A model generated the notes under the pieces. It made no database searches, was not told the DNA's origin, and worked only from the letters and a program-made list of their open reading frames with translations. This document shows, one piece after another, positions 1-22,571 of a stretch of 64,000 nt of DNA. How positions within the stretch are numbered: position 1 is the first letter of the stretch; the number at the start of each line of letters is the position of its first letter. The translations under genes and the position numbers were made by a program. Source of the stretch: Butyrivibrio sp. (GTDB lineage: Bacteria; Bacillota; Clostridia; Lachnospirales; Lachnospiraceae); contig JAFXTN010000037.1 of the NCBI GenBank assembly GCA_017535785.1, positions 248,001 to 312,000 on the forward strand. Reading direction: 5' to 3'.

Positions 1-1030
1 TTCTGATAGATATACCTTCGGTAGACGCAAGGATTTCATACTTATCATCAGCTACGTTCTTATTTGCGTTTGTGACTGTGACATTTTGGACACCGTCAGG
101 AACAGTAAAAACATTTCTGCTGGTCGTAGAAGAAGCTGAAATATTCCAGTATGAAGGTTCAGTGATGCTGTTACCGTTGATACCTTCAATGATCACAGAA
201 AGATCGTCGCCTTCTTCCACATCAAAGCTAACGGTAGTTCCGTGATAATCAAAAGAGTAAGTGCCTGCGTCATTTCCGTTTCCGCTTATTCCTAGACCGG
301 CCCATGTCGCAACGTCTACATTGTTGACTTTTATGCCTGTCTCATCGGCTTTCCACTCGTATTTTCTTACGACTTTATCCAGAGATTCTCCCTCTTTAAG
401 GCTTATATGAACCTTTTCACCGTCCCAAAGATCGAATTCCACAGTCTGATCCTTGGTCGAGTTGCCGTTTCCGTCAAGCTCGAGACCTTTTGCGGCAAGC
501 TCATCAAGATTGTATCTGACATTATTAAAGTCCAGACCTCCGATAGTGCCCGGCGCACTGTAAAAGACCTGGATATCATATGGCTCTGTGTTGGGAGTAA
601 CAGAAGGTGCATAGGGCACCTTAAAGATCTTCATTTCATTAAAAGAGGCGGAACCGAAGACTCTTTCAATCTCGTTCTTTATCTGCTGAACTTCTTCGTT
701 GACAAATTCTCTGTCTTTGTCGGTAAGGGTGCCGTTGGCACCTTTTACAGAGAGCTCATTGATTCTCTGAAGCATGTCGTGAACTTCGTTGAGATATCCG
801 TCCGCAACCTGAATAAAGCTGATTCCGTCCTGGATGTTCAGCATGTTCTGCCCCAGTCCGCGAATCTGCCTTCTCATTTTCTCACTGATTGCAAGCCCTG
901 CCGCATCATCCGCTGCACGGTTTATACGATAACCCGACGATAGCTTCTCAGCGGATTTTGCTTTTGTATTTGTTGTAATTCCCAGCTGGCGATGCGCAAA
1001 CATCGACGCCATATTGTGCTGTATTACCAT
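1..1030 (-). CDS. Flagellin, N-terminal part (gene runs off the left edge)
   Basis: The minus strand is open from an ATG at 1030 to the window edge (343 codons). The first 110 or so residues are the D0/D1 helices of flagellin: an N-terminal MVIQHNMASMFAHRQL, then KSAEKLSSGYRINRAADDAA, then GLAISEKMRRQIRGL, all hallmarks of the family. The rest in view is a variable surface domain rich in Asn, Gly and Thr. The C-terminal D0 helix lies outside the window. GAGGG six bases before the ATG supports the start. The protein is exported by the flagellar type III system and polymerises into the filament, so it has no signal peptide. A sigma-28-like promoter lies just upstream. hag or fliC would be the usual name, but paralogues are common in this family so I give no symbol. 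Confidence 0.93.
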   Translation of the reverse strand, partial: MVIQHNMASMFAHRQLGITTNTKAKSAEKLSSGYRINRAADDAAGLAISEKMRRQIRGLGQNMLNIQDGISFIQVADGYLNEVHDMLQRINELSVKGANGTLTDKDREFVNEEVQQIKNEIERVFGSASFNEMKIFKVPYAPSVTPNTEPYDIQVFYSAPGTIGGLDFNNVRYNLDELAAKGLELDGNGNSTKDQTVEFDLWDGEKVHISLKEGESLDKVVRKYEWKADETGIKVNNVDVATWAGLGISGNGNDAGTYSFDYHGTTVSFDVEEGDDLSVIIEGINGNSITEPSYWNISASSTTSRNVFTVPDGVQNVTVTNANKNVADDKYEILASTEGISIR

Positions 1031-1070
1031 ACATAACCCTCATGATCAAATTGGTGGATATCTCTATTAT

Positions 1071-1098
1071 ATATCGGGTAGAAGTGAGAGAAATCTTA
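1071..1098 (-). promoter_or_regulatory. Candidate sigma-28 (FliA/SigD) promoter of the flagellin gene
   Basis: Read on the minus strand there is TAAG, 16 bases, then CCCGATAT, close to the sigma-28 consensus TAAA-N15-GCCGATAA. It lies about 41 bases before the flagellin start, a sensible 5' leader length. The match is imperfect and the spacer one base long, so this is an inference. Confidence 0.5.
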
Positions 1099-1185
1099 GA
1101 TGTGATAATAAATATTTTTGTACCCTGTATATTTACAGAAAAATAGTTGTATAGAAATAATTCTGCAACAAATGCCTGGGCAAAA

Positions 1186-1214
1186 TTGCAAGAAAAGCTA
1201 GCAAGTGGTACAAT
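1186..1214 (+). promoter_or_regulatory. Candidate sigma-A promoter for the LytTR/kinase operon
   Basis: TTGCAA and TACAAT are separated by 17 bases and end 56 bases before the response regulator start. The spacing is ideal and both hexamers keep four to five consensus bases. Confidence 0.45.
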
Positions 1215-1270
1215 TATTTAATTAATAGGTTGTATCAATTGAATTACGCTTATAAGAAAAGAGATTTGGT

Positions 1271-1978
1271 ATGGGGAAAATATGTATTGGCATCTGCGAC
1301 GATCAGTCTGAGATCGTGGAAGAACTCGGTGAGCTGGTCAAAAAAGTCTTAGAGGAAATTCCTTTTAATGAATTGCGCATTCTTAAGAGTACTTCTCCTC
1401 TGAAAATCCTAAGAGAAATCAAAAATATTGATATTCTGTTCCTTGATATGGACATGCCGGAGATGGACGGAATAAAAGCCGGAAAGGAAGTGATGCTGGA
1501 GAATCCCGCATGCAAGATCATTATTGCTACTGCGAGAGAAGACAGGGTCAAAGAAGCCTTTTTTATATCGGCATTTCGATTTATCACCAAGCCTTTCAAG
1601 TATGAAGAGCTTAAGGAAGCTGTTATAACGGCACTGGAGGAAACTCCCGGCGATAATGAGATTGAAGCTTTCCGAGAAAGAGTGAGCTTCAATCTAAAGG
1701 AAAGGGATATATCCATGATAAGGGCCTATAACGGATACGTTGAGATCATGGTTGGCGACAACGTGTTCAGAAAGGACATATCTTTAAATGCGCTGGAAGA
1801 ACAGCTGGACGATCGCATTTTCTTTAGGATCAATAGGCAATACTTGGTAAATTTTAGACACATAAGTTCATATAAAAAAAATAAGGTGGTGGTCAATAAT
1901 AAGACATTTGTAATTTCTGTCAGACGACATAAAGAGTTTTTTAAGAAATACATGGAATACGATTTAAGATACAGTTAA
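1271..1978 (+). CDS. AgrA-type response regulator (REC + LytTR)
   Basis: This 235-residue protein has a receiver domain at residues 1-125. The acidic pair is in ICDDQ, the phospho-acceptor Asp is in LFLDMDMPEMDG, and the conserved Thr and Lys are in IATARE and ITKPFK. A LytTR DNA-binding domain follows at about 135-235, with the typical FFRINRQYLVNFRHI segment. It should be phosphorylated by the kinase encoded 9 bases downstream and bind direct-repeat promoters. This architecture is that of AgrA/ComE/PlnC regulators that answer to secreted peptides. The peptide gene at 3326-3409 is the obvious local candidate signal (inference). The ribosome site is weak (AAGAGA). Confidence 0.92.
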   Translation: MGKICIGICDDQSEIVEELGELVKKVLEEIPFNELRILKSTSPLKILREIKNIDILFLDMDMPEMDGIKAGKEVMLENPACKIIIATAREDRVKEAFFISAFRFITKPFKYEELKEAVITALEETPGDNEIEAFRERVSFNLKERDISMIRAYNGYVEIMVGDNVFRKDISLNALEEQLDDRIFFRINRQYLVNFRHISSYKKNKVVVNNKTFVISVRRHKEFFKKYMEYDLRYS

Positions 1979-1987
1979 GGGAAGAGT

Positions 1988-3304
1988 ATGGGAAAAATTA
2001 TATTGGTGGAACTGATTTTTTGTTTTGAGATTGTTAAATATTATATTGTTTATGCGCTATGCTCGAAGCAGAAGGTTGGGATAAAGAATAAAAAAGTAAT
2101 ATATATTTTATCGATAATGCTGGGTATGATTGGTTTGGTAGCAAAGAGCATGCCATTTGACGGCGCTTATGCATTGACACTATTTGGAGCGATAACACTT
2201 ATGTTTCTGAACATGGAGCATAAGATAAGTAATAGAATATGGAATAGTTTTATTATTATGATGAGTGTTACTGCTTTGGATAGCATATTTTACAATATAT
2301 ATACGAAATATGTGAGCAAGGATCTTTTTTCTGTAGAGTTTGATTATCTGATTTTGGATGGCTTTTTTGCTCTTCTTTTGGTGGGAGCTTATATTTGCCG
2401 ATTAGGAATAAATAATTATCTGCGTGGATTAATAAGCAGAAGACTTCATTTCTTTCTTAAAATAACGAGCATCATTGTAGATGCCTGCTTATGCCTGGGA
2501 GGAACGCATATTATCAGAACTTCAAACGGAGAAGGCTTCTATTTTGTTTTTGGAATAATAATGCTGTTAAGTGCGGCTTTTCTTGGTGCCCAAATAGTAG
2601 GAATGATAGATTTAAACAGTAGATTAAATGAAGGAATAAATCAAGAAAGGTTGTTACGGGAAATACAGAAAGAACATTATCAAAGCCTTATCAGAAAAGA
2701 TAAAGAAATCAGGAAGTATCGTCATGATATGTTGAATCATTTTATGGTTATAGAATCATATATTGAAAAAGGTAAGATGGATTCTGCCAAAGATTATCTC
2801 AACGAATTAAAGGGAGCTGTATTAGCTACAACTCAGAAAAAATATTGTGTGGGACATGATGTTATAGATGCTATATCTTGTTATTATCTTTCTGAGATTG
2901 AAGAGTTTGCTCGTATAACTGTTAGAGGAGTGGTTTCGGAAAATATTGGAATAAGTGAAATGTGCTTATGTACGGTATATTCTAATCTGTTGAAAAATGC
3001 AGTTGAAGAACTCCTAAGATTGAAAGAGCAAGATATAAAGAACCTTGATCTATTTGTTGAGTTCAAGATGGGGAAGCGTTATTTTGAAATAAAAATAAAA
3101 AATACTGCTCATCACAATACTGGTTTTGAAGGGATGAATACGTTAACTTCAAAGCTGGATGTAGGAAATCATGGTATTGGATTGAGCAGTATTATGTATG
3201 CAATTCAAAAAGAAAATGGTGCTATAACCCTCAATCAAGATGGAGGATTTGTTCTTGCAGATGCGGTTATCCCGATTAGAGAAGCAAAAACAATGGCGAT
3301 TTGA
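1988..3304 (+). CDS. AgrC-type peptide-sensing histidine kinase
   Basis: This 438-residue protein has six or seven hydrophobic segments in the first 215 residues, followed by a cytoplasmic kinase core. The phospho-acceptor His lies in RKYRHDMLNHF (about residue 245), as in the HPK10/AgrC group. The ATPase has an N-box YSNLLKNAVEELL and a G-box GNHGIGLSS of the GHKL type. No extracellular sensor domain is present, which fits recognition of a small peptide by the membrane segments. It follows the response regulator by 9 bases with GGGAAGAG as ribosome site, so the two are one operon. No AgrB-type protease is encoded nearby. Confidence 0.9.
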   Translation: MGKIILVELIFCFEIVKYYIVYALCSKQKVGIKNKKVIYILSIMLGMIGLVAKSMPFDGAYALTLFGAITLMFLNMEHKISNRIWNSFIIMMSVTALDSIFYNIYTKYVSKDLFSVEFDYLILDGFFALLLVGAYICRLGINNYLRGLISRRLHFFLKITSIIVDACLCLGGTHIIRTSNGEGFYFVFGIIMLLSAAFLGAQIVGMIDLNSRLNEGINQERLLREIQKEHYQSLIRKDKEIRKYRHDMLNHFMVIESYIEKGKMDSAKDYLNELKGAVLATTQKKYCVGHDVIDAISCYYLSEIEEFARITVRGVVSENIGISEMCLCTVYSNLLKNAVEELLRLKEQDIKNLDLFVEFKMGKRYFEIKIKNTAHHNTGFEGMNTLTSKLDVGNHGIGLSSIMYAIQKENGAITLNQDGGFVLADAVIPIREAKTMAI

Positions 3305-3325
3305 TTGACAGGTAAATTTTGTTAA

Positions 3326-3409
3326 TTATCCCCCGTTTCCGCTTGAACTTGAGTTTCCTCCAGATAATAATTCTTCTACAGCTTCCCAAATTGATGTACC
3401 TAAGTCCAT
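3326..3409 (-). CDS. 27-residue peptide facing the AgrC-type kinase (candidate signal peptide)
   Basis: An ATG at 3409 preceded by AAAAAAGGAGGTAAGCAATA opens a 27-codon frame ending in TAA at 3326, 22 bases from the convergent kinase gene. The ribosome site is the strongest in this part of the window, which argues that the frame is translated. Residues 1-15 (MDLGTSIWEAVEELL) should form a short amphipathic helix. Residues 16-27 are almost only Gly, Ser and Asn and end in Gly-Gly. There is no Cys, so it is not a classical AgrD thiolactone precursor, and no signal peptide. I infer it is a pheromone, a PSM-like peptide or an unmodified bacteriocin sensed by or controlled by the adjacent kinase and regulator. 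It is too short for routine gene calling. Confidence 0.6.
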   Translation of the reverse strand: MDLGTSIWEAVEELLSGGNSSSSGNGG

Positions 3410-3464
3410 TATTGCTTACCTCCTTTTTTGAGAAGATAGCATGAATTATGATGGATTACAATAG

Positions 3465-3549
3465 AAACTCCTTTAATGTTTGATATAGCTTATTAAGTGA
3501 TGTGTGTACGTAATACACTTAACAAGTAAAAAAAACGTTAAAGGGGTTT
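3465..3549. repeat. Long interrupted inverted repeat upstream of the peptide gene
   Basis: Outer arms AAACTCCTTTAATGTTT (3465-3481) and AAACGTTAAAGGGGTTT (3533-3549) are near-perfect inverted copies. Inner arms TTAAGTG (3493-3499) and CACTTAA (3516-3522) are nested between them. A T-rich tract follows on the plus side. It lies 56 bases upstream of the peptide start, so it could be a regulatory dyad, the 5' leader fold of the peptide mRNA, or a remnant of a mobile element end. The rest of 3550-4175, apart from the candidate small gene at 3763-3888, is AT-rich DNA in which I see no other convincing gene. Confidence 0.55.
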
Positions 3550-3762
3550 TTCTTTTTTGCTTTTTTGGGGTATGAGAAAATAAAGCAATAAATTGAAAAT
3601 TTGTTGCTTACAATCGGCTGATTGGAACTACGAAATATCTTATTATTTTGCTGTTTGTAAATTGTTGATTTTATTTCTGTAATAAATATAGCTTTCACTT
3701 TTGACGTTTACAGATTAAAAGTGTCATTCATAAACAAATTATTGATTTTAGAGGAAAGTTAT

Positions 3763-3888
3763 TTGCAAATAATGAGTGAATTAAACATATATAAGAATTG
3801 TGGCTTTTCTTTATGCAATCCACTTCATAAAGGAATAAACTACATAACTAAAAGATGGTTTTGGTGGAAGATGTTTTGCAAAGCATAA
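3763..3888 (+). CDS. Possible 38-41 residue Cys/Trp-rich peptide ahead of the biosynthetic cluster
   Basis: A frame starting at TTG (3763, with GAGGAAAG eight bases upstream) or ATG (3772) runs to TAA at 3886-3888. The product has three Cys, three Trp and a basic C-terminal half ending in KRWFWWKMFCKA. It lies on the same strand as the radical SAM gene, 287 bases upstream, with no other gene between. A modified precursor peptide is one reading. A chance frame is equally possible, because 40-codon frames occur by chance and no family is recognised. Confidence 0.27.
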   Translation: MQIMSELNIYKNCGFSLCNPLHKGINYITKRWFWWKMFCKA

Positions 3889-4175
3889 ACAGTATGAAGA
3901 ATAACTCATAATGTTGAGAAGACTAATTTTGGAATTAAATAATTGTACGTTGTTAATCTATGAAAGAAAACCATCTAAACGGATTAGAACATAAATAATT
4001 AGAAAATTTAAATAAGGTATCAATACGCATTCAGTAGAATCACAAAGCATCTTTATGTTAAATGTAGAAGCTTTGAAATAGGCCTATATTTTCTGGATGA
4101 GTGTTTTTGATATATAAGATATTCAGTCGCGAATGGATTTACTTTAGAAATAATGCACAAAGGAGAGACTATGTC

Positions 4176-5183
4176 ATGCAAGGCTACATAACTAAAAAAG
4201 GTATAATAGATGAAATAAAGATTCATTCTCATGGTAATACAAAATTTTGTAATCCTAACATGTTAGAAATCAACCCAGCTATTGGCTGCCAATTTGAATG
4301 CCAATATTGTAACGCATATACACAAGAGAAAGATAATTGTTTTAATGGCGTTGTCGTATATGAAGATTATCCTGAGTATTTAAGGTCATGGCTTAATGAT
4401 AACAAAAATGTCCTTGATAAAATCTTTTTCTACTATTCTCCTAAAATTGATTGTTTTCAAGATTGCTTAATAGAAACTGGGGTCACAGAAAAAATACTGG
4501 CGCTTTTTAAGGAATACAATGTGAAGTATTTTATGATTACTAAAGGCGGTGTTCCTAATGATGCTATTAAAAAACTCCTAATAAATTCTAAGGATCTTAA
4601 TCAAATTATCATAAGTTGTACAATGCCCAACGAAGATATTAGACGTATTCTGGAGCCGAATGCTAAATCGATAAGTGAAAGAATGGAGTTGGCGAGATAT
4701 TGTGTGGACAATGGAATAAGGGCAACCGGTATCTTCTCACCGATATTACCTATTGATAATTTGCAGTTCGTAAAAGATTATATAAAGAACTATATTGAAA
4801 TGGGTATCTATCATTTTAGAGTTGATTATACTGAAATATCTAGAGAAAGTTTAAGAAAACTTTGTGATTTACTTCCAGAATATAAAGAACAACTTGAAGC
4901 TGTGTATCTAGATAAGGATGCAACTATAACGCATTGGAAGGTGCCATATACAGAAAGGCAAATTGAAAGATATTGGCCATCTATGGAATATATGTGCAAT
5001 ACATTTAACGATTTGAAGAATTACGCGGAATCTATAGATGAGAGAGCTACAGTGAGTGTATGTAATTCGTTATGCACACAAGATAAATTATATAGGTTCA
5101 ATGATAAGTGTGTAAACCACGGAATCAATTGTATTGGATATATCATGAATGTCGAGAAGTATAATAAAGCAATGGGCAAATAA
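4176..5183 (+). CDS. Radical SAM protein of the spore-photoproduct-lyase type
   Basis: From the ATG at 4176 (AGGAG upstream) the protein has 335 residues, near the usual length of SPL-family enzymes. The CxxxCxxC motif that binds the [4Fe-4S] cluster and SAM is in IGCQFECQYCNAY (about residues 36-48). Later segments such as FMITKGG and IISCTMPNEDIRRILEPN match the SPL-like barrel. The C-terminus has four more Cys (VCNSLC, then C, then INC), which could bind an auxiliary cluster. It opens the AT-rich operon and is not near sporulation genes, so I infer it modifies an amino acid or peptide in the pathway rather than repairing DNA. An upstream in-frame GTG exists but has no ribosome site. Confidence 0.8.
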   Translation: MQGYITKKGIIDEIKIHSHGNTKFCNPNMLEINPAIGCQFECQYCNAYTQEKDNCFNGVVVYEDYPEYLRSWLNDNKNVLDKIFFYYSPKIDCFQDCLIETGVTEKILALFKEYNVKYFMITKGGVPNDAIKKLLINSKDLNQIIISCTMPNEDIRRILEPNAKSISERMELARYCVDNGIRATGIFSPILPIDNLQFVKDYIKNYIEMGIYHFRVDYTEISRESLRKLCDLLPEYKEQLEAVYLDKDATITHWKVPYTERQIERYWPSMEYMCNTFNDLKNYAESIDERATVSVCNSLCTQDKLYRFNDKCVNHGINCIGYIMNVEKYNKAMGK

Positions 5184-5263
5184 TAAAACAATATATATCA
5201 TTATCCATTAGTCATAGAAGATTGATGGATAATGATATATCAATCATAATTAGAAGAGGCAAA

Positions 5264-6502
5264 ATGTATACATTAAATATACTTGGAGATGGAAGAATAA
5301 CATTAGCATTACTTAAACGAATTATTGATTTTGGTTTGGATAAAAAAATTAAAAAGATAGTTGTATGGAAAAGAAACAAATATATTTATGAGCAAGGATC
5401 AATAATAGAAAAAACAGATACTATGTCCGAAGACATAATTGGAATCCATACATTAAATGCTTTGGGCGTAGATCGATATAACGAGATAAGAAAAAAAATA
5501 ATTTTTTGCCGGTATTCTTCAATTGAGGAACTTCAGCAAATAGATTTATGTAATAAAGAGTGTATATTGCTTATTTTAACAAAATATAAATTAAAGGAAT
5601 TGTTTTATATAAGCGATGATGAAAAATATAATTTCAACAATGATGTCCATGTTGAGTTGTTTAAAAAAAGATATGGGCTATTTTTTAGTATGTTGGATAA
5701 GAAGAATTATGATAATAAAAGATGGTATTTGGAATATTGCAGACTAAAAGAAAAATATGCGATTTATGATGCGAGATTGGATTACTTAAATAGTGAAATT
5801 GCGGTTGGATCAGATCGTTTATATAATTTGAAAGATTCAACTTTATGCATTAATAGTTTAGCTAATGTGCTAAAAAAGGACATTAGGATAAACGGATTGA
5901 TAATAAATATGGTTAATGAAGTGGATGCGACAAATTATATTTTATACAAAAGAATGAAATTGGATGTTACACATATTATCTCTCCGTGTGAAAATGATAA
6001 TTACAGAGCTAATTATTTTATGCGTAAGCATTTAGAAGATGAGGAATTGACGGATTTTAAGTTAAATGTGCTTGGCCCACATAATTATTTATGTTTTATT
6101 TCATCAGATATTATTGATGAGAAGTGGAATGATGATAAGAAAAAACAATATAAATTACTGTTGGAGAAAGTTCATAAGGAAGTAAGCGAATTTGGAGAGA
6201 AGATATTTGAGAAAAAGAGAAGTTCTGATGAGGATACGGTGGATGGATTATATGATGCTCTGCAAGCTGTAATTTGTAATTTGAAAGATAAAGTATTTAG
6301 GGCTTCATATTATTCGAAGAAATACGAACATTTTACAGGTATACCGGTAAGATTTGTGGATTCTAAATTTTTACCAGTTGAATCGATGATGGATTTTACT
6401 TCAGAGAATGTAAAGGAAAAATTTGATAAAGGCTTAAAGAGCCAAATTATCATTGATGATGTATTGGATGCAATTTTAAAGAAGGAAAAAACAGCAGTAT
6501 GA
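5264..6502 (+). CDS. Divergent lactate/malate-dehydrogenase-fold protein
   Basis: This 412-residue product starts at the ATG at 5264, with AAGAGG upstream. The N-terminus LNILGDGRITLALL resembles a Rossmann dinucleotide-binding loop. The segment LIINMVNEVDATNYILYKRM lines up with the NPVD region of LDH/MDH enzymes. LNVLGPHNYLCF occupies the place of the GEHGD loop that carries the catalytic His, and an Arg follows in NDNYRANYF where LDSARF is usual. The C-terminal helix also resembles that family. Identity is low and an insertion of about 80 residues (roughly 115-195) is present, so the substrate is unknown. I infer an NAD(P)-dependent 2-keto or 2-hydroxy acid step, but a non-enzymatic role cannot be excluded. 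The stop overlaps the next start in ATGA. Confidence 0.55.
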   Translation: MYTLNILGDGRITLALLKRIIDFGLDKKIKKIVVWKRNKYIYEQGSIIEKTDTMSEDIIGIHTLNALGVDRYNEIRKKIIFCRYSSIEELQQIDLCNKECILLILTKYKLKELFYISDDEKYNFNNDVHVELFKKRYGLFFSMLDKKNYDNKRWYLEYCRLKEKYAIYDARLDYLNSEIAVGSDRLYNLKDSTLCINSLANVLKKDIRINGLIINMVNEVDATNYILYKRMKLDVTHIISPCENDNYRANYFMRKHLEDEELTDFKLNVLGPHNYLCFISSDIIDEKWNDDKKKQYKLLLEKVHKEVSEFGEKIFEKKRSSDEDTVDGLYDALQAVICNLKDKVFRASYYSKKYEHFTGIPVRFVDSKFLPVESMMDFTSENVKEKFDKGLKSQIIIDDVLDAILKKEKTAV

Positions 6503-7716
6503 AAAGTGAGATGATACAGGACATTGCAGAGAGAAATGTGATTACTATTTTATCTACTAGAATAATAGCAGCGACTGGATATATGATGTTGACTCCATTT
6601 CTGTCAATAATGCTCTTGGCTAACGGAGTTAGCACGGCAAAGTGCGCATTAATAACAGCATTTTATACTTTTTCACAGACAGGGTTTATGATTCCGGCAG
6701 CTTGGATACTGAATAAGTTACATTACAAGAAAAGTATGATTTGGGGTAGATTGATAACTGCTATATTGGTTTTGGGGTATACATGGAGTAAAAATATTAT
6801 TATTTTGCTATCGATTAGCTTGGCAATAGGATTTGGTACATCATTATATAATTTAGCATGTAAGGGATATATTGGAATTATTTCAAGTGATAATAATCGA
6901 AAAAGACTCAACTTATTTGCTGCATATAATGTAGCTATGAATATAGGTTCATCATTAGGTCCATTACTAGGGTCGTTGATAGTGGCAAAAGATAGGTACA
7001 TGATCCTTCTGTTGGTAATAATAATAATGAATTTATTATCCGCCATAGTAACGGCTATCTTTATGAATAGAATAGAAGAAACAGATATAAGAAAAGTAGC
7101 AAATACAAATATGAGAGTATCTCAGTATCTGAACAAAGATTTTATTTCTCTAATTATTATTACAGTATTGCTACAAATATTATTTACGCAGATGTTTTCA
7201 GTTATGCCTGTATATTTTGTGCAGAATGAAATTAATATTTATTATTATACAATAATGCTGACAATTAATACGGTTGGATGTGTCATGTTGCAAACGCCAG
7301 TATTGTGGATTTCTAAGATGATTTTAAAGGAACGTCAAAAATACGGGCTATTTCTTGCTGCTATGATATATGTATTGGGTTATTGTTTTATGTATTTTTC
7401 AAATGAAAATAGTTTTTCTTTTTGTGTGTTAGGTGGCTTATTGACTATAGCAGAGTTGGTTTTAACGCCTTATCAAGACAAGTTGGTATCGGATTTGAGT
7501 AAAGATCCGATACTAATTAATTATTACATAAGTGTTTTTGGTGTGGCGTGGGCAATTGGAAAAGGATTAGGTAATTATATTGGAATAAAGTACCTAGAAT
7601 ACACTAATGATACAAATAGTTATTGGGCGTTATTGTCGATTGTAGGATTAACTATAGTAGTATTGATATTGTTTAGTAATAGAGGAAGAGGAAATCTATA
7701 TGCAGAAGCAGAGTAG
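6499..7716 (+). CDS. MFS transporter, probable exporter of the cluster product
   Basis: This 405-residue protein has about twelve hydrophobic segments and a charged loop in the middle (near residues 190-205, RIEETDIRKV), typical of the major facilitator superfamily. The start overlaps the preceding stop (ATGA), and the gene overlaps the following ATP-grasp gene by 17 bases, so translation is coupled. In operons with ATP-grasp ligases an MFS protein usually exports the dipeptide-like product and gives self-protection. That role is inferred here from context. Confidence 0.85.
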   Translation: MKSEMIQDIAERNVITILSTRIIAATGYMMLTPFLSIMLLANGVSTAKCALITAFYTFSQTGFMIPAAWILNKLHYKKSMIWGRLITAILVLGYTWSKNIIILLSISLAIGFGTSLYNLACKGYIGIISSDNNRKRLNLFAAYNVAMNIGSSLGPLLGSLIVAKDRYMILLLVIIIMNLLSAIVTAIFMNRIEETDIRKVANTNMRVSQYLNKDFISLIIITVLLQILFTQMFSVMPVYFVQNEINIYYYTIMLTINTVGCVMLQTPVLWISKMILKERQKYGLFLAAMIYVLGYCFMYFSNENSFSFCVLGGLLTIAELVLTPYQDKLVSDLSKDPILINYYISVFGVAWAIGKGLGNYIGIKYLEYTNDTNSYWALLSIVGLTIVVLILFSNRGRGNLYAEAE

Positions 7717-8932
7717 AGTATTATTAATTATAGAAAAAAATCCTTCTGGGTCATATGGAATACAGATGGCAAAGAGAATGGGGCTATATGTTATTTTTTT
7801 TTCTAATAATAAGTATTCCAATCGTCCGTCCGAGGAGGATAGACAGTATATTGATGAACTATATGAAATAGATACTAATAGTGATGATGATGTAATGCGC
7901 TTAGTTAAAGAAATATCAGTAAAGACAAAAATTGACGCAGTTATTACATTTATGGAGTATTATGTTCCATTGGTTGCCAAAGTTGCTCAGTATTTGGGGG
8001 TCAAGGGAAATTCAGTAGAATGCAGTATATGCACTCATGACAAATATGAAATGAGAAAAAAACTATATCAGAATGGTGCCTCGATTCCACAATATCTACT
8101 GTTTGATTCGTTGGAATCATTGCTTGAAGGTGTAAATATTATTGGTTATCCTAATGTTATCAAGCCAATAAATATGGCAGCAAGTCGTGCGGTTCTAAAA
8201 TCATGTAATAAAGAAGAAATGGTTACAAATTATGAAAAATTAATACAGGAGATTCCACCTTATGGTGTAATGAAAGAGGAAAGATACCTCTTGGAAGAAT
8301 ATGTTGATGGGCAGGAAATAAGCGTAGAAGCAGCTGTCGAAAATGGAAAGGTCAATATTATTGCTTTTACCAAAAAATATGTATCGAGTGGGAATCATTT
8401 TGTCGAAATGGGACATACAGTTCCATATAATGTTGATAATAAAACAAAAATGGAAATAGAAAGATGTGTATTAGAAGGAATCAGAGCTTTGGGGATAACA
8501 AATTCTATTACTCACTCCGAGATAAAGATTTCGCCTAAAGGCCCTAAAATAATTGAAATAGCTTCTCGCTTAGGCGGGGATCATATTCCTGATTTAGTAA
8601 ATTATGCATATGGAATAGATATGTGGAAAATGGCTATTGAAATAGCTTTAGGCGAGAAAATTGATTGCAATAAAGTAAAAAATGAGGCGGCGTCAATAGT
8701 TTTCTTGTCGGCAAATCCAGGAAGAATAATACGTATAGAGAATGAGGATTTAATAAAAAGGAAAGCTGGAGTTAAATTACTGCATCTTGAATGCTCAGTA
8801 GGTGATAAAGTGAGCAGTTTAGAAAACAGTTTAAGTAGAATTGGAGAAATAATAACTGTGGGTAATAATTGTAACGAGGCTGAGCAACTATCAAGTTGGG
8901 CTTTAAATGAAATTATTATAGAAACGAGGTGA
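7700..8932 (+). CDS. ATP-grasp ligase 1 (amino acid ligase type)
   Basis: This 410-residue protein has an N-terminal Rossmann-like domain (1-105). It continues with an ATP-grasp domain carrying the nucleotide-binding Lys segment VIKPINMAASRAV, the hinge LLEEYVDGQEISVEA, and the Mg-binding segment SEIKISPKGPKIIEIASRLGG. The C-terminal 90 residues resemble the extra domain of L-amino acid ligases such as BacD. Such enzymes join a carboxylate and an amine through an acyl phosphate. GAGGAAAT precedes the ATG, which lies inside the transporter gene. Substrates cannot be read from the sequence. Confidence 0.82.
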   Translation: MQKQSRVLLIIEKNPSGSYGIQMAKRMGLYVIFFSNNKYSNRPSEEDRQYIDELYEIDTNSDDDVMRLVKEISVKTKIDAVITFMEYYVPLVAKVAQYLGVKGNSVECSICTHDKYEMRKKLYQNGASIPQYLLFDSLESLLEGVNIIGYPNVIKPINMAASRAVLKSCNKEEMVTNYEKLIQEIPPYGVMKEERYLLEEYVDGQEISVEAAVENGKVNIIAFTKKYVSSGNHFVEMGHTVPYNVDNKTKMEIERCVLEGIRALGITNSITHSEIKISPKGPKIIEIASRLGGDHIPDLVNYAYGIDMWKMAIEIALGEKIDCNKVKNEAASIVFLSANPGRIIRIENEDLIKRKAGVKLLHLECSVGDKVSSLENSLSRIGEIITVGNNCNEAEQLSSWALNEIIIETR

Positions 8933-8938
8933 CAAACT

Positions 8939-10168
8939 ATGTATACAATTCTGTTGATCGGAATGGCAGAGAATTTTATTAAATACACACAACATAGAGA
9001 TGATATGCGCTTTCTAGTAATTGAAGAAAAAGATTTGTTCTATGCTAATAATTGTGAAGGTGTTAGATATAAAAATCTAATTGGCGTATATATCGGTGAG
9101 TATATGCATAGTACAGAATGCATTTCAATTGCAAGAAAACTGAATGAAGAAATGAAAATTGATGCAGTTATTCCTGGTAGAGACTATGCTGTTGAAACGG
9201 CTACTGCTATTGCAGAAGAATTAGGTGTTAATAGTTTGGGAATGGGAGCAGCAAAAGCATTAACAAATAAATTCTTGTTAAGAAATGCATGTGTTAAGGG
9301 GGATATTTTTCAACCTAAATATTGTAAAATAAATTCAGTTGAGGAATTAAAAAAATTTTGTAAAAATAATAAACCTGTGATATTAAAGCCTTCTAATCGT
9401 CAGGCTAGTTTGGGAATAAGCTTAATTACTGAGGATTCAGATATATTAGGGGCATATGAATATACTACTTCTGCAGATGAAGATAAACGAAGAATAGCAA
9501 TGCGTGATTTTAAAAAGGAATATATAGCAGAACAGTATATTGAAGGCGAAGAATACAGCACAGAGTTATTGGTGCTAGATGGAAAAATAGTATTTAGTAA
9601 TATTACGAAGAAAGATACTATGGAAAACGCTTTTGTTGAATTACAACATGTTGTTCCTGGAAACGACTATTTGTCTCCTAAAGCAATTAAGACGTTAGAA
9701 GAGCAGACCCATTTTTTGGTTAGTTTATTAGATGTAGGAAGTGGTATACTACATGCAGAATGGAAAATGAATAATGATATACCATATTTGATAGAATGCG
9801 CTGGAAGAATACCGGGAGATTATATATGCAGGCTTATTGGACTGGCGTTTGATATAAATTTTTACGAAGAAACATGTAATATATATTTAGGTTTATTTTC
9901 TAAACATATTGGACAACCTGTTAGATATGCTGTGAATAGGTATTTCACAGCAAAGGAAGGAAAGGTTATTGAGATACAGGGTAAAGAAAAATTAGATACT
10001 GAAAATGTCGTTCAGTACAATATAAACTATTCAATAGGGGAAGATGTTCCTGTAGTGAAATCTTCTTGGGATAGAATTGGAAACTTTATTATAGTGAATG
10101 ATAAAATTGAAGAATTAGAAAAAGAAAAAAGATTAATTCTAGATAGCGTAAAATTTATAACTGCATAA
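8939..10168 (+). CDS. ATP-grasp ligase 2
   Basis: This 409-residue protein has the same general plan as ligase 1 but is clearly different in sequence, so the pair is not a recent duplication. Visible elements are the Lys loop VILKPSNRQASLGIS, the hinge IAEQYIEGEEYSTELLVLDG, and the metal-binding HAEWKMNNDIPYLIECAGR. GAGGTG lies upstream of the start, six bases after the first ligase. Two non-identical ligases suggest a product of at least three joined units, or two alternative condensations (inference). Confidence 0.8.
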   Translation: MYTILLIGMAENFIKYTQHRDDMRFLVIEEKDLFYANNCEGVRYKNLIGVYIGEYMHSTECISIARKLNEEMKIDAVIPGRDYAVETATAIAEELGVNSLGMGAAKALTNKFLLRNACVKGDIFQPKYCKINSVEELKKFCKNNKPVILKPSNRQASLGISLITEDSDILGAYEYTTSADEDKRRIAMRDFKKEYIAEQYIEGEEYSTELLVLDGKIVFSNITKKDTMENAFVELQHVVPGNDYLSPKAIKTLEEQTHFLVSLLDVGSGILHAEWKMNNDIPYLIECAGRIPGDYICRLIGLAFDINFYEETCNIYLGLFSKHIGQPVRYAVNRYFTAKEGKVIEIQGKEKLDTENVVQYNINYSIGEDVPVVKSSWDRIGNFIIVNDKIEELEKEKRLILDSVKFITA

Positions 10169-10179
10169 AAGGGGAAACT

Positions 10180-11007
10180 ATGTTTTTTACAAAAGTAAAT
10201 GGATTAGGAAATGATTTTATTATAGTAGAAGAGAATGAAGAGAATATTAGTAACCTAAAAAAATGTGCTTCTAAAGTATGTAATCGTTATACTGGAATTG
10301 GTGCAGATGGAATCTTGGTTTTGTCGAAATCAACTGTAGCTGATCTTAAGATGACTATAATAAACTCAGATGGTTCAATAGCAGAGATGTGCGGAAATGG
10401 AATAAGATGTGTAGCAAAGTATGCTTATGAAAATAAAATTGTAAATAAAGAAGAATTTGAAATCGAGACATTGGCGGGAATTATGAAGCCCCAATTATTC
10501 ATTGAAAATGGAAAAGTAAGGGATGTAACCATAAATATGGGTTCACCATTTTTTGATAGTAATAAGTTGATTGCGAAAAAAAGCATTAAATCTTTAGTAG
10601 ATATTCCTGTTATTATTGGGAACAAAAAATATCTATGTAATAGCGTATTAATGGGGGTCCCTCATACAGTTGTTTTTGTAGATAATATAGATGACATAGA
10701 TGTATGTGAGTTAGGGTCAATTATCGAAAAAAATTCAATATTCTTAAATGGGACAAATGTAAATTTCGTTCAAGTGATTGATGAAGATACCTTGATAGTA
10801 AGAACATGGGAAAGGGGGGCTGGATATACTAAGGCATGCGGAACAGGAGCGTGTAGTTCAGCAGTAATATTTAACAAGATAAAATCACGACATAATAAAA
10901 TTTGCACAAAACTTCAGTTGGGTGAGTTATATGTAGAATGGACAGAAGAAGGTGTTTTGATGACAGGACCTGCAGAAACGGTATTCAAAGGGGAAATGGA
11001 GGTGTAA
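10180..11007 (+). CDS. DapF-family amino acid epimerase, second copy, in the biosynthetic cluster
   Basis: This 275-residue protein keeps both active-site Cys, in EMCGNGIRC (residues 68-76) and KACGTGAC (about 218-225), plus the GLGNDF, INSDG, NVNF and WERGAG segments of diaminopimelate epimerase. The Asn of the MGNPH segment, a substrate contact in known DapF structures, is Val here (LMGVPH). The canonical DapF at 26845-27768 keeps it. The genome therefore has a housekeeping DapF, and this copy is the last gene of the AT-rich operon, 12 bases after ligase 2. DapF-fold racemases such as CntK (histidine racemase of staphylopine synthesis) are known in metallophore clusters. I infer it supplies a D- or meso-amino acid to the ligases, or is a divergent DapF. 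Confidence 0.85.
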   Translation: MFFTKVNGLGNDFIIVEENEENISNLKKCASKVCNRYTGIGADGILVLSKSTVADLKMTIINSDGSIAEMCGNGIRCVAKYAYENKIVNKEEFEIETLAGIMKPQLFIENGKVRDVTINMGSPFFDSNKLIAKKSIKSLVDIPVIIGNKKYLCNSVLMGVPHTVVFVDNIDDIDVCELGSIIEKNSIFLNGTNVNFVQVIDEDTLIVRTWERGAGYTKACGTGACSSAVIFNKIKSRHNKICTKLQLGELYVEWTEEGVLMTGPAETVFKGEMEV

Positions 11008-11053
11008 TAAATCTTTGATTGTTTTTTTTGGGGGTCAACTAAAGTGTGTAAGA

Positions 11054-11611
11054 TCATTCCTTCGACCCTTTCCGCAGCTTAGTGCAGTATAGTGAGCTGA
11101 ACGATATACCGATCATTGCAACAACCTGGTTGTAGGGGGCAAGAAGGTAGAGTGCATGTTCTAGCTGCTCTTGTTTGTATTTCTTGGGATGGCCACCATA
11201 GTGGCCAGAGATACGGCGACCTTCTTGTGTTCGTTCTACAACCATGTCACGTTCAAACTCAGCGAAAGCAAGCAGGATGCTTCTTATTAGCTTACCTGTT
11301 GGAGACCTGTCCATAAGTCCCATGTTGAGTACATGGATATTGATGCCATGGCTGAGCAATTCTTCAATAAAACTGCTGCCTTGTGAAGCAGATCGAGCAA
11401 GTCGATTCAGCTTAGTAATCATAAGTGTGTCCCTAGGCTCTAAGGCTTTGCGAAGCTCGTTTAATTAGGGACGATCAAGCGTAACGCCGGTAAATGAATC
11501 ATAGAAAACAATCTTTGCACCGGCGGCTTTTAAGAGCTTTCTCTGAGCCTCCAAAGAGTTGCCTTCTCGTTCCTGAATCTTGGTGCTGACGCAGGCGTAT
11601 CCACATATCAT
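11054..11611 (-). pseudogene. Serine recombinase (resolvase/invertase) with an internal stop
   Basis: From the ATG at 11611 the minus strand encodes a 185-codon resolvase-length reading frame. Recognisable segments are GYACVST (catalytic Ser region), NSLEAQRKLL, TLMITKLNRLARS, and AFAEFERDMVVERTQEG, then a helix-turn-helix end. One in-frame TAA interrupts it right after TLDRP, at about 11465-11467, where a sense codon before LNELRKAL is expected. The Arg of the usual YARVS motif is Cys here. The reading frame is otherwise intact, so the decay is recent. The gene marks the right border of the AT-rich island and is probably a relic of the element that brought it. Confidence 0.82.
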
Positions 11612-11643
11612 TTTTGCTCCTTTTTCGTGAACATAAGTTATGA

Positions 11644-11838
11644 CTATTCGAATTGTTCATAGTAATCGATTCGTTCGCCGAGGTCTTCGATGAGAATCAA
11701 CTGGTTTCGTATGATTGGCTAGTTGCTGTAGGCTTTATATTGCCACTTCTCATAGAGGTCAAGAATTCTTAAGTAGAGTACCTTTGTATAAATGGATGGT
11801 TGAGAAATGGGCAATGGTATGCGGAATATTAGGAGCAT
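11644..11838 (-). pseudogene. Remnant of a small gene upstream of the recombinase
   Basis: On the minus strand a 65-codon frame from ATG 11838 to TAG 11644 has protein-like segments on both sides of a single in-frame TAG at 11719-11721: RILDLYEKWQYKAYSN before it and QLILIEDLGERIDYYEQFE after it. A CAG-to-TAG change would explain it. The frame precedes the recombinase by 32 bases on the same strand. I do not recognise the family, and the first 25 residues are hydrophobic and may not be genuine. Confidence 0.35.
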
Positions 11839-12464
11839 CTCGCAATATGTAAAAGAAAACTTCGATGATAATACTATTAATGAAATTTATGCTGTATCAA
11901 GTAGGTTACGTAATTTTTTGAGAATATGAGAGAATAAAAATGTCCCTAACAGCACGTATAGCCAAAACGGAGTTGAGGGGAATTGAATCCTAGCTCTGGA
12001 CAATCATTCCTACCAAATATAGAAACAATTCTACATGTGAACAGTAAAGCTAAGAGAACTCTTAAAAAGAGAAACTATTATTATATGAACCTGATAATTG
12101 GGACGAGAAAAACGATTCATCTTTTGAATTGGTGTTATTCGTCGCATGTTTTAACAGGAGTGATAAAGAGTAATTCCCAGAGGGGAAAAACTGTAAATAG
12201 TTGTAAAATAATATCCGACCTGTAAACAGTTGTATTGAAGAAAGAATATAATGAAAATCCTTTTACACATACACCCTGTAGATTTGGGGATGCCAATATT
12301 TCGACAACTATCGAGGAAAAAGTATATGAAAATTTCAGGTATCCGCAGCCTTCGGAGTGCGTATGCAAGATAACCGGAATCAGAGGCTCGAGTAACCTTT
12401 CTTTGGAGAGTATATTCAGAAATATTGTTGATCTTTTGCATATTGCATAGAAAGAGGGAAATAC
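11839..12464. other. Gene-poor junction between the AT-rich island and the core genome
   Basis: No gene is supported here. A plus-strand frame of 40 codons (11807-11929) and short frames at 11983-12450 look like debris or chance. They lack ribosome sites in the right place and match no family I know. Composition changes from AT-rich to the window average near 12300, marking the likely edge of the acquired DNA. Confidence 0.4.
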
Positions 12465-13583
12465 ATGACCTTTGAACCTCTGGCGGTTGAGCTTGATGAG
12501 AACGGAATCTCAGGTTTTATCAAGCGTTACCATTTTAAGACAAGTGAGAAAAAAGATATTGTGATGCTATATAGACAGCTTCACCCGAGAGTGCATGCGA
12601 GTTTCCATCATGTGATCGAGGGCGAGACTGTCTATGTTGTCGTTACGCTCGGAGATGCCTTCGACAGCTTTCAGGATTCTCTTTTGCAAAAAGGCGAGAT
12701 ACAGAAGGCGTTTATCGTCGATTGCCTCGGAACGGAGATGCTCTCGCTTGCTTATGAAGAGGTTGATAAAAAGATATTTGAAAAGACCGGACTTTACGTG
12801 GGAAGCTATGTCTTTGCGGGCAGCGATAAGATGCCGCTTGAAGAGCTTGCCGCTGTAATGAAAAAGCTTGGGCAAAAGATTGTAAAGTGTAACGAATCTT
12901 TTGTACTGGTTCCGAAAAAGAGCGTTGTCTTTTCCGCAAAGCTTCATAAAAGGAGAAGCAGGAAGCATTCAGACTGCGAGAATTGCAGCGCGGTCAGCTG
13001 CCCCATGAGAAAGGAACCCGCTGCGAAAAGAGCGGTTTCCAAGGATGATGACAAGAGCGGAAAAGGCCTTATCCACTTGTATACGGGAGAAGGAAAAGGA
13101 AAGACCACGGCAGCGATCGGTCTTGCCGTCAGGGCAGCAGGCGCCGGAAAGAAGGTTGTCTTTTCTCAGTTTATGAAGGGCAGAAAAACTTCCGAGCTTG
13201 TTTCGCTTGAACTTATACCGGGAATTACTGTTGTAAGAAGCGAGAAGGAGCTCGGCTGGCTCAAGCGAGACGATGAAGCACAGTGCGAGATGTTCCGCGT
13301 GGTTCATAACGAGATACTTGATAAGATCTCAGAGCATATCCAGAACGGCGAGTGCGACGTGCTTATCATGGATGAAATCACATACCCGTTTAACTACGGC
13401 GTTATAGATAAGAAGAAGCTTGAAGATATGATAGACAACAAGCCCGATGACATGGAAATTGTCATGACCGGCAGAAACGCCGACGAGCTCCTTTCAGAAA
13501 AGGCGGACTACATTACCTACATGGAAAAAATACGTCATCCGTATGATAAGGGAATTGATGCAAGGCGCGGAATTGAATATTGA
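12465..13583 (+). CDS. MetH-activation-like domain fused to CobA-type corrinoid adenosyltransferase
   Basis: This 372-residue protein has a C-terminal half (about 200-372) that is an ATP:cob(I)alamin adenosyltransferase of the CobA/BtuR type. It carries the P-loop YTGEGKGKTTAAIGLAVRAA and the acidic VLIMDEITYPFNYG. The N-terminal half resembles the vitamin B12-dependent methionine synthase activation fold found in Clostridia. It ends in a Cys cluster, CENCSAVSCPMR, that may bind a metal. The enzyme would transfer the adenosyl group of ATP to cobalt. The fused domain may present or reduce the corrinoid (inference). GAGGG precedes the ATG and a strong terminator follows, so the gene is probably monocistronic. 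Confidence 0.8.
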   Translation: MTFEPLAVELDENGISGFIKRYHFKTSEKKDIVMLYRQLHPRVHASFHHVIEGETVYVVVTLGDAFDSFQDSLLQKGEIQKAFIVDCLGTEMLSLAYEEVDKKIFEKTGLYVGSYVFAGSDKMPLEELAAVMKKLGQKIVKCNESFVLVPKKSVVFSAKLHKRRSRKHSDCENCSAVSCPMRKEPAAKRAVSKDDDKSGKGLIHLYTGEGKGKTTAAIGLAVRAAGAGKKVVFSQFMKGRKTSELVSLELIPGITVVRSEKELGWLKRDDEAQCEMFRVVHNEILDKISEHIQNGECDVLIMDEITYPFNYGVIDKKKLEDMIDNKPDDMEIVMTGRNADELLSEKADYITYMEKIRHPYDKGIDARRGIEY

Positions 13584-13593
13584 AGATGCTTTG

Positions 13594-13635
13594 GCGGACC
13601 GATTGCCGTGTAACGGCAATTCGGTCCGCTTTTTT
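13594..13635 (+). terminator. Rho-independent terminator after the adenosyltransferase gene
   Basis: GCGGACCGATTGCCG and CGGCAATTCGGTCCGC form a stem of about 15 pairs with a short loop, followed by six T. Confidence 0.92.
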
Positions 13636-13640
13636 ATGTG

Positions 13641-13668
13641 TTGACATTTAAAATAATCGTGTTATAGT
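13641..13668 (+). promoter_or_regulatory. clpB promoter
   Basis: TTGACA and TATAGT are 16 bases apart and end 44 bases before the clpB start, directly after the preceding terminator. No CIRCE or CtsR heptad operator was recognised beside it. Confidence 0.7.
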
Positions 13669-13712
13669 TGTAATAGAACAAGTATAACCTGGTTTGTTTT
13701 GAGGAGGAAATT

Positions 13713-16304
13713 ATGAATATACAGAAGTTCACACAAAAGTCCATAGAGGCTGTGAGCGGATGCGAGAAGATCGCCGTTGAATACGGCAATCAGGAGATTG
13801 AACAGGAGCATCTGCTCTATGCTCTTATGACAATAGAAGATAGCCTTATCTCTAAGCTTGTTGAGAAAATGGGCGTTGACACAAGCTCTTTTGTCAACAG
13901 GATCGAGCAGGCGATCGGCAAGAGGACCAAGGTTCAGGGCGGCCAGCCTTATATAGGAGCGCAGCTCAATAAAGCTCTTTTGTCTGCTGAGGATGAGGCG
14001 AAGGCGCTCGGCGATGCATACGTTTCCGTGGAGCATCTGTTCCTTGCGCTTATTAAGCATGCCAATAAAGAGGTAAAAGAGATTTTTGCTCAGTTTGGGA
14101 TCGACAGGAACAGATTTCTCCAGGTGCTTTCCGAGGTTAGAGGTAACAGGAACGTGACGACGGATAATCCCGAGGCGACTTACGATACCTTGAGCAAATA
14201 CGGAACAGAGCTTGTCGAGAAGGCCAAGAACCAAAAGCTTGATCCCGTTATCGGCCGTGACACCGAGATCAGAAACGTTATAAGGATCCTTTCCAGAAAG
14301 AGCAAGAACAATCCCGTGCTCATCGGTGAACCGGGTGTAGGTAAGACTGCGGTTGTCGAGGCACTTGCGCAGAGGATCGCGAGCGGCGACGTGCCCACAG
14401 CTTTAAAGGATAAAAAGATCTTTTCGCTTGATATGGGTGCTCTTGTAGCCGGAGCGAAGTACAGAGGTGAGTTTGAGGAAAGGCTTAAGGCAGTTCTTGA
14501 AGATGTGAAAGGCTCGGACGGTGAGATAATCCTTTTCATCGATGAGCTTCATCTGATAGTCGGCGCAGGTAAGACCGACGGCGCGATGGATGCCGGCAAC
14601 ATGCTAAAGCCCATGCTTGCAAGAGGCGAACTCCACTGCATCGGTGCAACAACGCTCAACGAGTACAGACAGTACATAGAAAAAGACGCAGCGCTTGAGA
14701 GACGTTTCCAGCCTGTTATGGTTGATGAGCCTACGGTTGAGGATACGATCAGTATCCTTCGCGGACTGAAGGAAAGATATGAAGTCTTCCACGGCGTTAA
14801 GATCATGGACAGCGCGCGTGTAAGTGCCGCGGTTTTGTCTAACAGATACATTTCCGATCGTTTCCTTCCCGATAAGGCGATCGACCTTGTCGATGAGGCG
14901 TGCGCGCTTATAAAGACCGAGATGGATTCGATGCCGGCGGAGCTCGATGAGCTCAATCGTAAGATCATGCAGATGCAGATCGAGGAGGCCGCTCTTAAGA
15001 AAGAGGACGACAGCCTCAGTAAAGAGAGATTATCCAACCTGCAAAAAGAGCTTGCCGATCTCAAGGAAGACTTTGATACCAGAAAAGCTCAGTGGGAGAA
15101 CGAGAAACAGGCAGTTGATAAGCTTGCGGCTATGCGTGAGCAGATCGATACGATAAATTCGGAGATTGCCATCGCGCAGAGAAACGGTGATTATGAGAAG
15201 GCCGGAGAGCTTCAGTACGGCAAACTTCCTGCTCTTAAAAAAGAGCTTGAGGAAGCCGAGGAAGCTGCTCACAAGAAAGAAGCCGACACAACTCTTGTTC
15301 ATGAGCGAGTTTCAGATGAAGAGATCGCGGGTATCATCAGCAGATGGACCGGAATTCCCGTAAATAAGCTTACTGAGAGCGAGAGAAACAAGACACTTCA
15401 CCTTGCAGACGAGCTCCACGGAAGAGTTGTGGGTCAGGACGATGCGGTTACAAAAGTATCTGAAGCGATCATGAGATCGAAAGCGGGAATCAAGGATCCG
15501 AGAAAACCTATAGGTTCATTCCTGTTCCTCGGACCCACAGGTGTCGGAAAGACAGAGCTTGCAAAGAGCCTTGCACAGTCTCTTTTTGACGATGAGAACA
15601 ATATTGTACGTATCGATATGAGTGAGTACATGGAGAAGTACAGTGTGTCCCGTCTTATCGGAGCACCTCCCGGATACGTGGGCTATGAGGAGGGCGGACA
15701 GCTTACGGAAGCCGTAAGAAGAAAACCTTATGCGGTAGTTCTTTTTGATGGGATCGAAAAGGCGCATCCCGATGTCTTCAACATCCTTTTGCAGGTGCTT
15801 GATGACGGACGTATCACGGATTCTCAGGGCAGAACAGTCGACTTTAAGAACACGATCCTTATCATGACTTCCAACATCGGCGCGCAGTATCTGCTTGACG
15901 GAATCAGCAGCGACGGAAGCATCAGCGAGGAAGCTGAGAAAGAGACCATGGAGGATCTGAGAGCTCACTTTAGACCCGAGTTCCTTAACAGACTTGATGA
16001 GATCATCATGTTCAAGCCTCTTACAAAAGAGAACATTGGCGGAATCATTGAGCTGATAATCGATGACCTTAACACGAGACTTGCAGACAGAGAGATCTCT
16101 ATAAAGCTTTCTAAGGAAGCAAAGGACTATGTCATAGACAACGCTTATGACCCTATCTACGGCGCAAGACCGCTCAAGAGATATATTCAGAAGTATGTTG
16201 AGACATTGTCGGCGAGACTTATCCTTGAAGATAAGGTTCAGCCTCATGACACGATAGAGTTCGGAGTGGAAAACGGAGAGCTCGTTGCACACAGTGCAAG
16301 ATAA
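13713..16304 (+). CDS. clpB: ClpB disaggregase with altered second Walker B motif
   Basis: This 863-residue Hsp100 chaperone has full family length. It contains the Clp N-domain repeats (1-145), NBD1 with Walker [10 protein letters not shown] and Walker B LFIDELH, and the long coiled-coil middle domain (about 400-530). NBD2 follows, with Walker [10 protein letters not shown], the pore loop [13 protein letters not shown] and the Arg finger region [13 protein letters not shown]. ClpB works with DnaK to extract polypeptides from aggregates. In NBD2 the Walker B reads [11 protein letters not shown], where the family has FDEIEKAHP. The catalytic Glu is thus Gly (codon GGG at about 15770), which should block ATP hydrolysis in that ring. 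The ribosome site is GAGGAGG. Confidence 0.95.
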
Positions 16305-20730: not shown

Positions 20731-20734
20731 TGAA

Positions 20735-21535: not shown

Positions 21536-21584
21536 TAACACAAGGATAATGTTGTTTAGATAAAAGAACGGAGGCAAAAAAATT

Positions 21585-22442: not shown

Positions 22443-22454
22443 GATTAATAATTG

Positions 22455-22482: not shown

Positions 22483-22511
22483 CAATGTATACGCACAGTT
22501 TTGCGGTTTTA

Positions 22512-22520: not shown

Positions 22521-22571
22521 ATCGTTGCTGTGCACATTTATCATACTGCGTGGCACTGCAAGGAGAATGCT

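Follow-up and report, generated by a model that had tools for sequence, protein, structure and literature searches.

Within a 64,000-nt stretch of a Butyrivibrio sp. genome (GenBank assembly GCA_017535785.1, contig JAFXTN010000037.1, positions 248,001 to 312,000 of the forward strand; the whole stretch is called the window below), we analysed an operon of six genes encoding a radical SAM (rSAM) enzyme, a lactate dehydrogenase (LDH)-like protein, a major facilitator superfamily (MFS) transporter, two ATP-grasp ligases and a paralogue of the diaminopimelate (DAP) epimerase DapF. On balance, comparison of these proteins with known families suggests that the operon probably directs the synthesis and export of a small non-ribosomal peptide or pseudo-peptide that contains a diaminopimelate-like amino acid and is built independently of a non-ribosomal peptide synthetase (NRPS). 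The observations behind this reading are the gene set, the overlaps between the genes, their foreign base composition, the catalytic residues retained in the DapF paralogue, the rSAM enzyme, the ligases and the LDH-like protein, and the position of the operon as a cargo at an insertion site. Each of the enzyme classes is known; we found no description of the six-family combination in searches of one open-access library, in agreement with an earlier sequence-only reading that knew of no characterized cluster of this kind.

That reading had placed six genes on one strand, and a reading-frame check confirmed them at 4176–11007 on the plus strand (Table 1). Pfam supported its family assignments for five of the six, giving the order Radical_SAM, no family, MFS_1, ATP-grasp_4 with LAL_C2 (twice) and DAP_epimerase; for the LDH-like protein there is only a weak NCBIfam match to L-LDH. 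The junctions, said to be mostly gaps of less than 15 bases, are tight in four of five cases (overlaps of 4 and 17 bases, gaps of 6 and 11 bases), the remaining one, between the rSAM and LDH-like genes, being a gap of 80 bases that contains a hairpin. This hairpin has 19 Watson–Crick and two G–T pairs, and none of 200 shuffled sequences folded equally well. It is AT-rich and has no T run; a processing or stability element and a small mobile repeat are candidates for what it represents. No Rfam family matched at gathering scores within window positions 1–14000.

Judged by their domains, both ligases are of the L-amino-acid ligase (LAL) type, as PF13535 and PF18603 (the LAL C-terminal domain) score above the gathering thresholds in each. 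The two are 26% identical to each other, their closest solved structures are BL00235 first and BacD second (7.5e-27 for ligase 1 against PDB 3vot), and the ATP-grasp core E...E..R is kept in both as well as in four relatives. Ligase 2 has matches at E 1e-20 in five of 398 genomes of the phylum, its own included. Ligases of this kind are at times found in biosynthetic settings: in one locus, L014, an MFS gene overlaps the gene of a distant ligase relative, as read at the family level. By eye, this locus (9102–11569, minus strand, genome G1023) carries the LAL-like ATP-grasp and MFS genes followed by transketolase-like and amino-acid-synthesis-like genes, and it may be a further small-peptide cluster built on ligases.

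The DapF paralogue scores 281 bits against a TIGR00652 cut-off of 114.65 and conserves C71 and C220, which places it in the DapF family. A second, ordinary DapF lies 16 kb away at 26863–27768; it is 34% identical to the paralogue and is the only other DapF above the cut-off in the genome. We compared the paralogue with 30 other DapFs, a non-random sample: the 30 loci that scored best among 100 family genomes, without that of the operon, and the housekeeping DapF. It keeps N11, N62, C71, N193, E211, R212 and C220, but carries Val at 160, a position occupied by Asn in every one of the 30 (position 157 in Haemophilus influenzae and 164 in Anabaena), and it also deviates at further positions that do not vary among them, such as 13, 15, 189 and 195. 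In DapF, the distal carboxylate of the substrate is bound by three Asn and one Arg and the distal amine by a Glu (PMC12039745, PMC8225329). The carboxylate pocket of the paralogue is thus incomplete by one Asn, V160, with the other three residues kept. With one of five distal contacts lost, the paralogue is more likely to use a substrate resembling DAP, possibly altered at its distal end, than an unrelated compound, and the single pocket change makes the substrate choice of this enzyme directly testable.

PddB, CntK, HisR and DcsC are DapF-fold racemases that act outside lysine synthesis, and the operon resembles their settings in that its biosynthetic genes are accompanied by an additional DapF-fold protein (PMC8225329 for PddB; PMC11602996 for CntK and HisR). 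The O-ureido-serine racemase 7vdy is among the structure matches of the paralogue. In PddB, however, none of the three distal Asn is kept and the Arg is replaced as well (PMC8225329), whereas only one Asn is replaced here, so the substrate of the paralogue is probably closer to DAP. The link to CntK, which belongs to staphylopine synthesis (PMC11602996), raises the alternative that the operon makes a staphylopine-like or other metallophore. It is very improbable: neither an opine dehydrogenase nor a nicotianamine-synthase-like gene was found among the six by Pfam and NCBIfam, and on this ground a staphylopine-type cluster was rejected. Staphylopine synthesis does include an MFS exporter, as the operon may, yet it is not known to need LALs. 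Of the exported amino-acid-derived product proposed by the sequence-only reading, the general idea is therefore partly supported, and its metallophore variant of the staphylopine type is not.

The retention of N62, N193, E211 and R212 means that DAP itself may remain the substrate, which would suit a role in cell-envelope tailoring, with the ligases, the DapF paralogue and the MFS-like protein modifying or recycling peptidoglycan peptides (meso-DAP) and no compound being secreted. We consider this improbable, because the ligases match LALs that act on free amino acids and no Mur ligase family (for ligase 1, among the best 25 of 29 NCBIfam matches), and because the operon is a foreign and rare cargo. 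In addition, rSAM and LDH-like proteins are not known to take part in envelope tailoring.

The Radical_SAM domain of the first protein scores 39.8 bits (Pfam cut-off 29.5), and C38, C42 and C45 are invariant in 13 of 13 aligned sequences, so that it belongs to the superfamily. Matches at E 1e-15 occur in two of 391 genomes of the class, its own included. A collection of genome contigs yielded 12 loci with relatives from 223 candidate stretches. The closest (L019, from a Lachnospiraceae metagenome-assembled genome [MAG]) is 55% identical, and it is the only bearer of the gene among 138 genomes of its genus; the other 11 are 23–28% identical and carry 67–96 extra residues at the N-terminus. NRPS genes, identified by Pfam, adjoin the rSAM gene in five of the 12 (L020, L021, L023, L025 and L026), indicating that this subfamily is often found in biosynthetic settings. 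These five loci come from Firmicutes, Chlorobiaceae and Prolixibacteraceae MAGs. Among plasmids the sole rSAM match, at 25% identity, is a PA0069-family protein, and in viral contigs the rSAM pair A2 gave 48 candidate stretches, none of which was confirmed. In PHROGs, the rSAM enzyme matches only phrog_13321, a family of unknown function. A role of the operon in anti-phage defence was rejected, as PADLOC recognized none of the six proteins.

The LDH-like protein has a single NCBIfam match, to L-LDH (TIGR01771, E 4e-4), at 19.8 bits against a cut-off of 303.55. Its residues 183–251 nevertheless align with the protein of locus L002, an ordinary LDH (Ldh_1 by Pfam), at 38.1 bits compared with 25.8 for the best of 1000 shuffles, and at the catalytic positions of LDH it has R185, D245, R248 and H273. 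The N-terminal half does not align with LDH, and the protein is about 110 residues longer than that of L002. Relatives are lacking: among 200 family genomes it was found in its own only, and 392 genomes of the order added two matches of 30–31% identity over 72–73 residues. Both of these, L002 and L003, were rejected as orthologues, L002 being an ordinary LDH and the L003 frame looking similar by eye. Plasmids gave no match, and neither 25 candidate stretches in genome contigs nor six in viral contigs were confirmed, so that no orthologue emerged from the genomes, plasmids and viral contigs scanned; these pattern scans, like those for the rSAM enzyme, need exact stretches of seven or eight residues, which diverged relatives escape, and their negatives are weak.

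In the pathway that we propose, the DapF paralogue would set or invert an alpha-centre in an amino acid resembling diaminopimelate, or in a compound derived from it, the rSAM enzyme would carry out a radical step on a building block, and the LDH-like enzyme would interconvert a 2-keto acid and a 2-hydroxy acid. The two LAL-type ligases would then join the pieces via acyl phosphates, yielding a dipeptide, a tripeptide or a peptide with a hydroxyacyl cap, which the MFS protein would export. The 2-hydroxy acid is a possible cap because ATP-grasp ligases are known whose two substrates are an amino acid and a non-amino acid, as for E-64 (PMC12568646).

The pathway has partial parallels in known systems. 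Dapdiamide is a pseudo-tripeptide with two amide bonds, made independently of an NRPS with an ATP-grasp ligase (DdaF) and an amide synthetase (DdaG) (PMC12568646). Ligase 1 matches the DdaF profile at E 2e-15, but with 56.5 bits against a cut-off of 840 it is not a DdaF, and the available part of the same source does not mention DapF, rSAM or LDH-like steps for dapdiamide. The ligases TabS of tabtoxin and BacD of bacilysin are of the same class as those of the operon, and TabS together with a stand-alone epimerase gives L-Cys-D-Val in an engineered pathway (PMC13338154). The operon differs from both in having two ligases with rSAM and LDH-like proteins, and ligase 1 reaches 71.7 bits where the BacD model requires 850. 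Tabtoxin synthesis also involves lysine-pathway paralogues and an exporter. In pyrrolysine synthesis, PylB, PylC and PylD are an rSAM enzyme, an ATP-grasp enzyme and a dehydrogenase, respectively, and ligase 1 has a weak PylC match (29.1 bits against 248.3). A PylBCD-type set was rejected all the same, since PylB and PylD are absent from the complete NCBIfam match lists of the rSAM and LDH-like proteins (E 0.01) and the ligases are LAL-type.

Several results weigh against the proposed peptide product. The LDH-like protein has no Pfam match to Ldh_1 and stays below the NCBIfam L-LDH cut-off, and its single-sequence structure model was worthless (mean predicted local distance difference test score 32). 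Around the closest rSAM relative, L019, the upstream genes are different (a frame for a dTDP-sugar isomerase and one for a transposase that falls short of its Pfam cut-off) and the contig ends inside the rSAM gene; its genome has no LDH-like match and gave, with ligase 2 as query, one ATP-grasp protein of 24% identity in another context. A biosynthetic setting is not supported for the other seven of the 12 rSAM relatives, the neighbouring gene in L022, for example, having no Pfam match. With four of five distal-pocket contacts kept, the DapF paralogue may be a plain DAP epimerase. Finally, we found no relative of the cluster as a whole, and it cannot be demonstrated that selection keeps the six genes together. 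The co-occurrence of the six families that the sequence-only reading called for did not appear: 16 neighbourhoods (four of ligase 2 relatives and the 12 rSAM loci, three of them on contigs of only 3–6 kb) held no second protein of the window matching at E 1e-4. As no LDH-like orthologue was found, this reflects an absence of relatives rather than relatives scattered over other loci, and co-occurrence does not decide whether the six genes form a unit.

The operon is part of a larger AT-rich insertion that starts at about 1,080. The GC content is 0.272–0.366 in all ten 1-kb segments of 1001–11000 and 0.400–0.506 in the other 54 of the window, so that, contrary to the sequence-only reading, the operon is not AT-richer than both flanks, the immediate left flank being AT-rich too. 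GC content at third codon positions is 0.20–0.28 in the six operon genes, 0.285 in the kinase gene and 0.45 in the regulator gene upstream, compared with 0.53–0.55 in the CobO and ClpB genes. A congener, G510, has the empty site: homology stops at window position 1077 and resumes at 12464, with 137 bp between, an interval that separates a flagellin gene (its domains were read by Pfam in the window genome's own copy) from the CobO gene. Because this site is empty, the window holds an insertion of about 11 kb; because a further congener, G1327, still matches 12121–12237 and then 12403 onward, the insertion probably ends on the right at around 12,120. The decayed recombinase noted earlier at the right border is indeed present as a serine-resolvase frame on the minus strand with an in-frame stop, and its PHROGs matches are to invertase/integrase families.

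Foreign AT-rich DNA, a broken recombinase next to it and the failure to find relatives of the set would also be expected of a decaying or non-functional cargo that currently has no product. This explanation seems quite improbable to us, as the six frames are intact, joined by overlaps or short gaps, and retain their catalytic residues.

Table 1 Features of the insertion and its operon (window coordinates)
Feature	Position	Strand	Evidence or remark
Insertion relative to congeners	1078..12120		G510 homology ends at 1077; G1327 still matches 12121-12237; right edge approximate
LytTR response regulator	1271..1978	+	Receiver PF00072 1.8e-15; LytTR DNA-binding PF04397 2.6e-14
GHKL sensor histidine kinase	1988..3304	+	PF14501 1e-11
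27-codon peptide gene MDLGTSIWEAVEELLSGGNSSSSGNGG	3326..3409	-	Shine-Dalgarno AAGGAGG; kept beside the same kinase in G342
rSAM gene	4176..5183	+	Radical SAM enzyme, CxxxCxxC (C38, C42, C45); PF04055 6.7e-10
Intercistronic hairpin between rSAM and LDH-like genes	5193..5240	+	21 pairs, -26.5 kcal/mol, z -8.5
LDH-like gene	5264..6502	+	C-terminal half with LDH catalytic residues; NCBIfam TIGR01771 E 4e-4
MFS transporter gene	6499..7716	+	PF07690 4.2e-23; probable exporter, direction inferred
ATP-grasp ligase 1 gene	7700..8932	+	LAL type by domains; PF13535 2.8e-22, LAL_C2 5.6e-13
ATP-grasp ligase 2 gene	8939..10168	+	LAL type by domains; PF13535 2.9e-19, LAL_C2 9.1e-10
DapF paralogue gene	10180..11007	+	TIGR00652 281 bits
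Serine recombinase remnant	11054..11611	-	PF00239 4.9e-15 on 11054-11422; in-frame stop

Beyond the six-gene block of the earlier reading, the insertion contains a sensor pair and a short peptide gene, and these place the operon in a context of exchangeable cargoes. In the congener G342, homology to the window runs from the left through the regulator, kinase and peptide genes up to 3409, the first base of the peptide-gene start codon, and resumes at 12465. Between these points G342 has other genes, which encode another LytTR regulator, a protein of 761 residues with a weak solute-binding match, an ATP-binding cassette (ABC) ATPase, its partner of 320 residues, to which Pfam assigns no family, and a signal peptidase. 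This alternative cargo is also AT-rich and lies at about 19443–26040 on the reversed joined stretch of L036 and L037. Because G342 combines the same sensor pair and peptide with unrelated genes and the same right-hand gene, the operon is one exchangeable cargo at this site. In ten congeners, chosen from the 32 of 79 with a CobO match, the frames closest to CobO on its upstream side, at most 14 in each (L102 offering only 4.4 kb), included no sensor pair, peptide gene or operon; a flagellin-like gene was seen there in G510, G1327 and G1340.

The kinase is 86% identical in amino acid sequence to its G342 copy, and matches at E 1e-40 occur in three of 79 congeners (G000, G342 and a 36% match in G1356, which has no comparable peptide gene just downstream). 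In the peptide gene, located between the kinase gene and the operon, AAGGAGG stands nine bases before the ATG of the 27-codon frame; this pattern occurs twice in the window against a chance expectation of 0.16. The peptide core GTSIWEAVE is identical in G342, and its back-translated pattern is present in two of 194 relatives, G000 and G342. A GHKL kinase and a LytTR regulator beside a short peptide gene are the arrangement of AgrBDCA-type systems; no AgrB-type protease was found among the ten window proteins put to Pfam, to which the search was confined. Position and shared inheritance make it likely that the cargo is under the control of the sensor pair, for which the peptide may serve as signal, and the presence of the same pair in front of other genes in G342 fits a general switch.

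The proximity of the peptide gene to the rSAM gene (0.8 kb) and its conservation in G342 could also be taken to mean that the rSAM and ATP-grasp enzymes act on the 27-residue peptide in a ribosomal peptide pathway, and ATP-grasps of graspetide pathways do modify peptides (PMC8939145). We regard this as extremely doubtful. G342 keeps the peptide and the sensor pair but has no match to the rSAM enzyme (E 1e-15) or the LDH-like protein (E 1e-3), its cargo being other genes; moreover, both ATP-grasps are LAL-type and the peptide gene is on the opposite strand. Its retention in G342 without the operon led us to reject the peptide as the substrate of such a pathway.

Taken together with the switch, the proposed non-ribosomal product invites a more specific, speculative version, which as a whole we think rather unlikely: the two ligases would link an rSAM-modified or keto-acid-derived block to a DAP-like amino acid from the retuned DapF, giving an antimetabolite or signal for export, and the genes would travel as one member of a set of cargoes that replace each other behind a conserved peptide-sensing switch. 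If true, it would mean a new biosynthetic logic for small secreted peptides, combining an rSAM enzyme, a dehydrogenase, tandem amino-acid ligases and a retuned DapF, and further cargoes could be found by searching beside the sensor pair and peptide switch.

A few smaller features accompany the insertion. At its right border, 12253–12429 is a fragment of a 358-residue gene whose intact copy adjoins CobO in the congener G327; the full-length protein has no Pfam family, and a P-loop-like GIRGSGKT was recognized in it by eye. The 27-residue peptide contains LSGG (LSGA in G342) before a Ser/Gly-rich end, a stretch that may be a cleavage motif of the double-glycine type, the peptide being a possible signal. 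About 110 bases upstream of the peptide gene, the window (at about 3512–3527) and G342 share TACACTTAACARGT, which overlaps one arm of an imperfect inverted repeat (3489–3499/3516–3526) and is a candidate site for the regulator.

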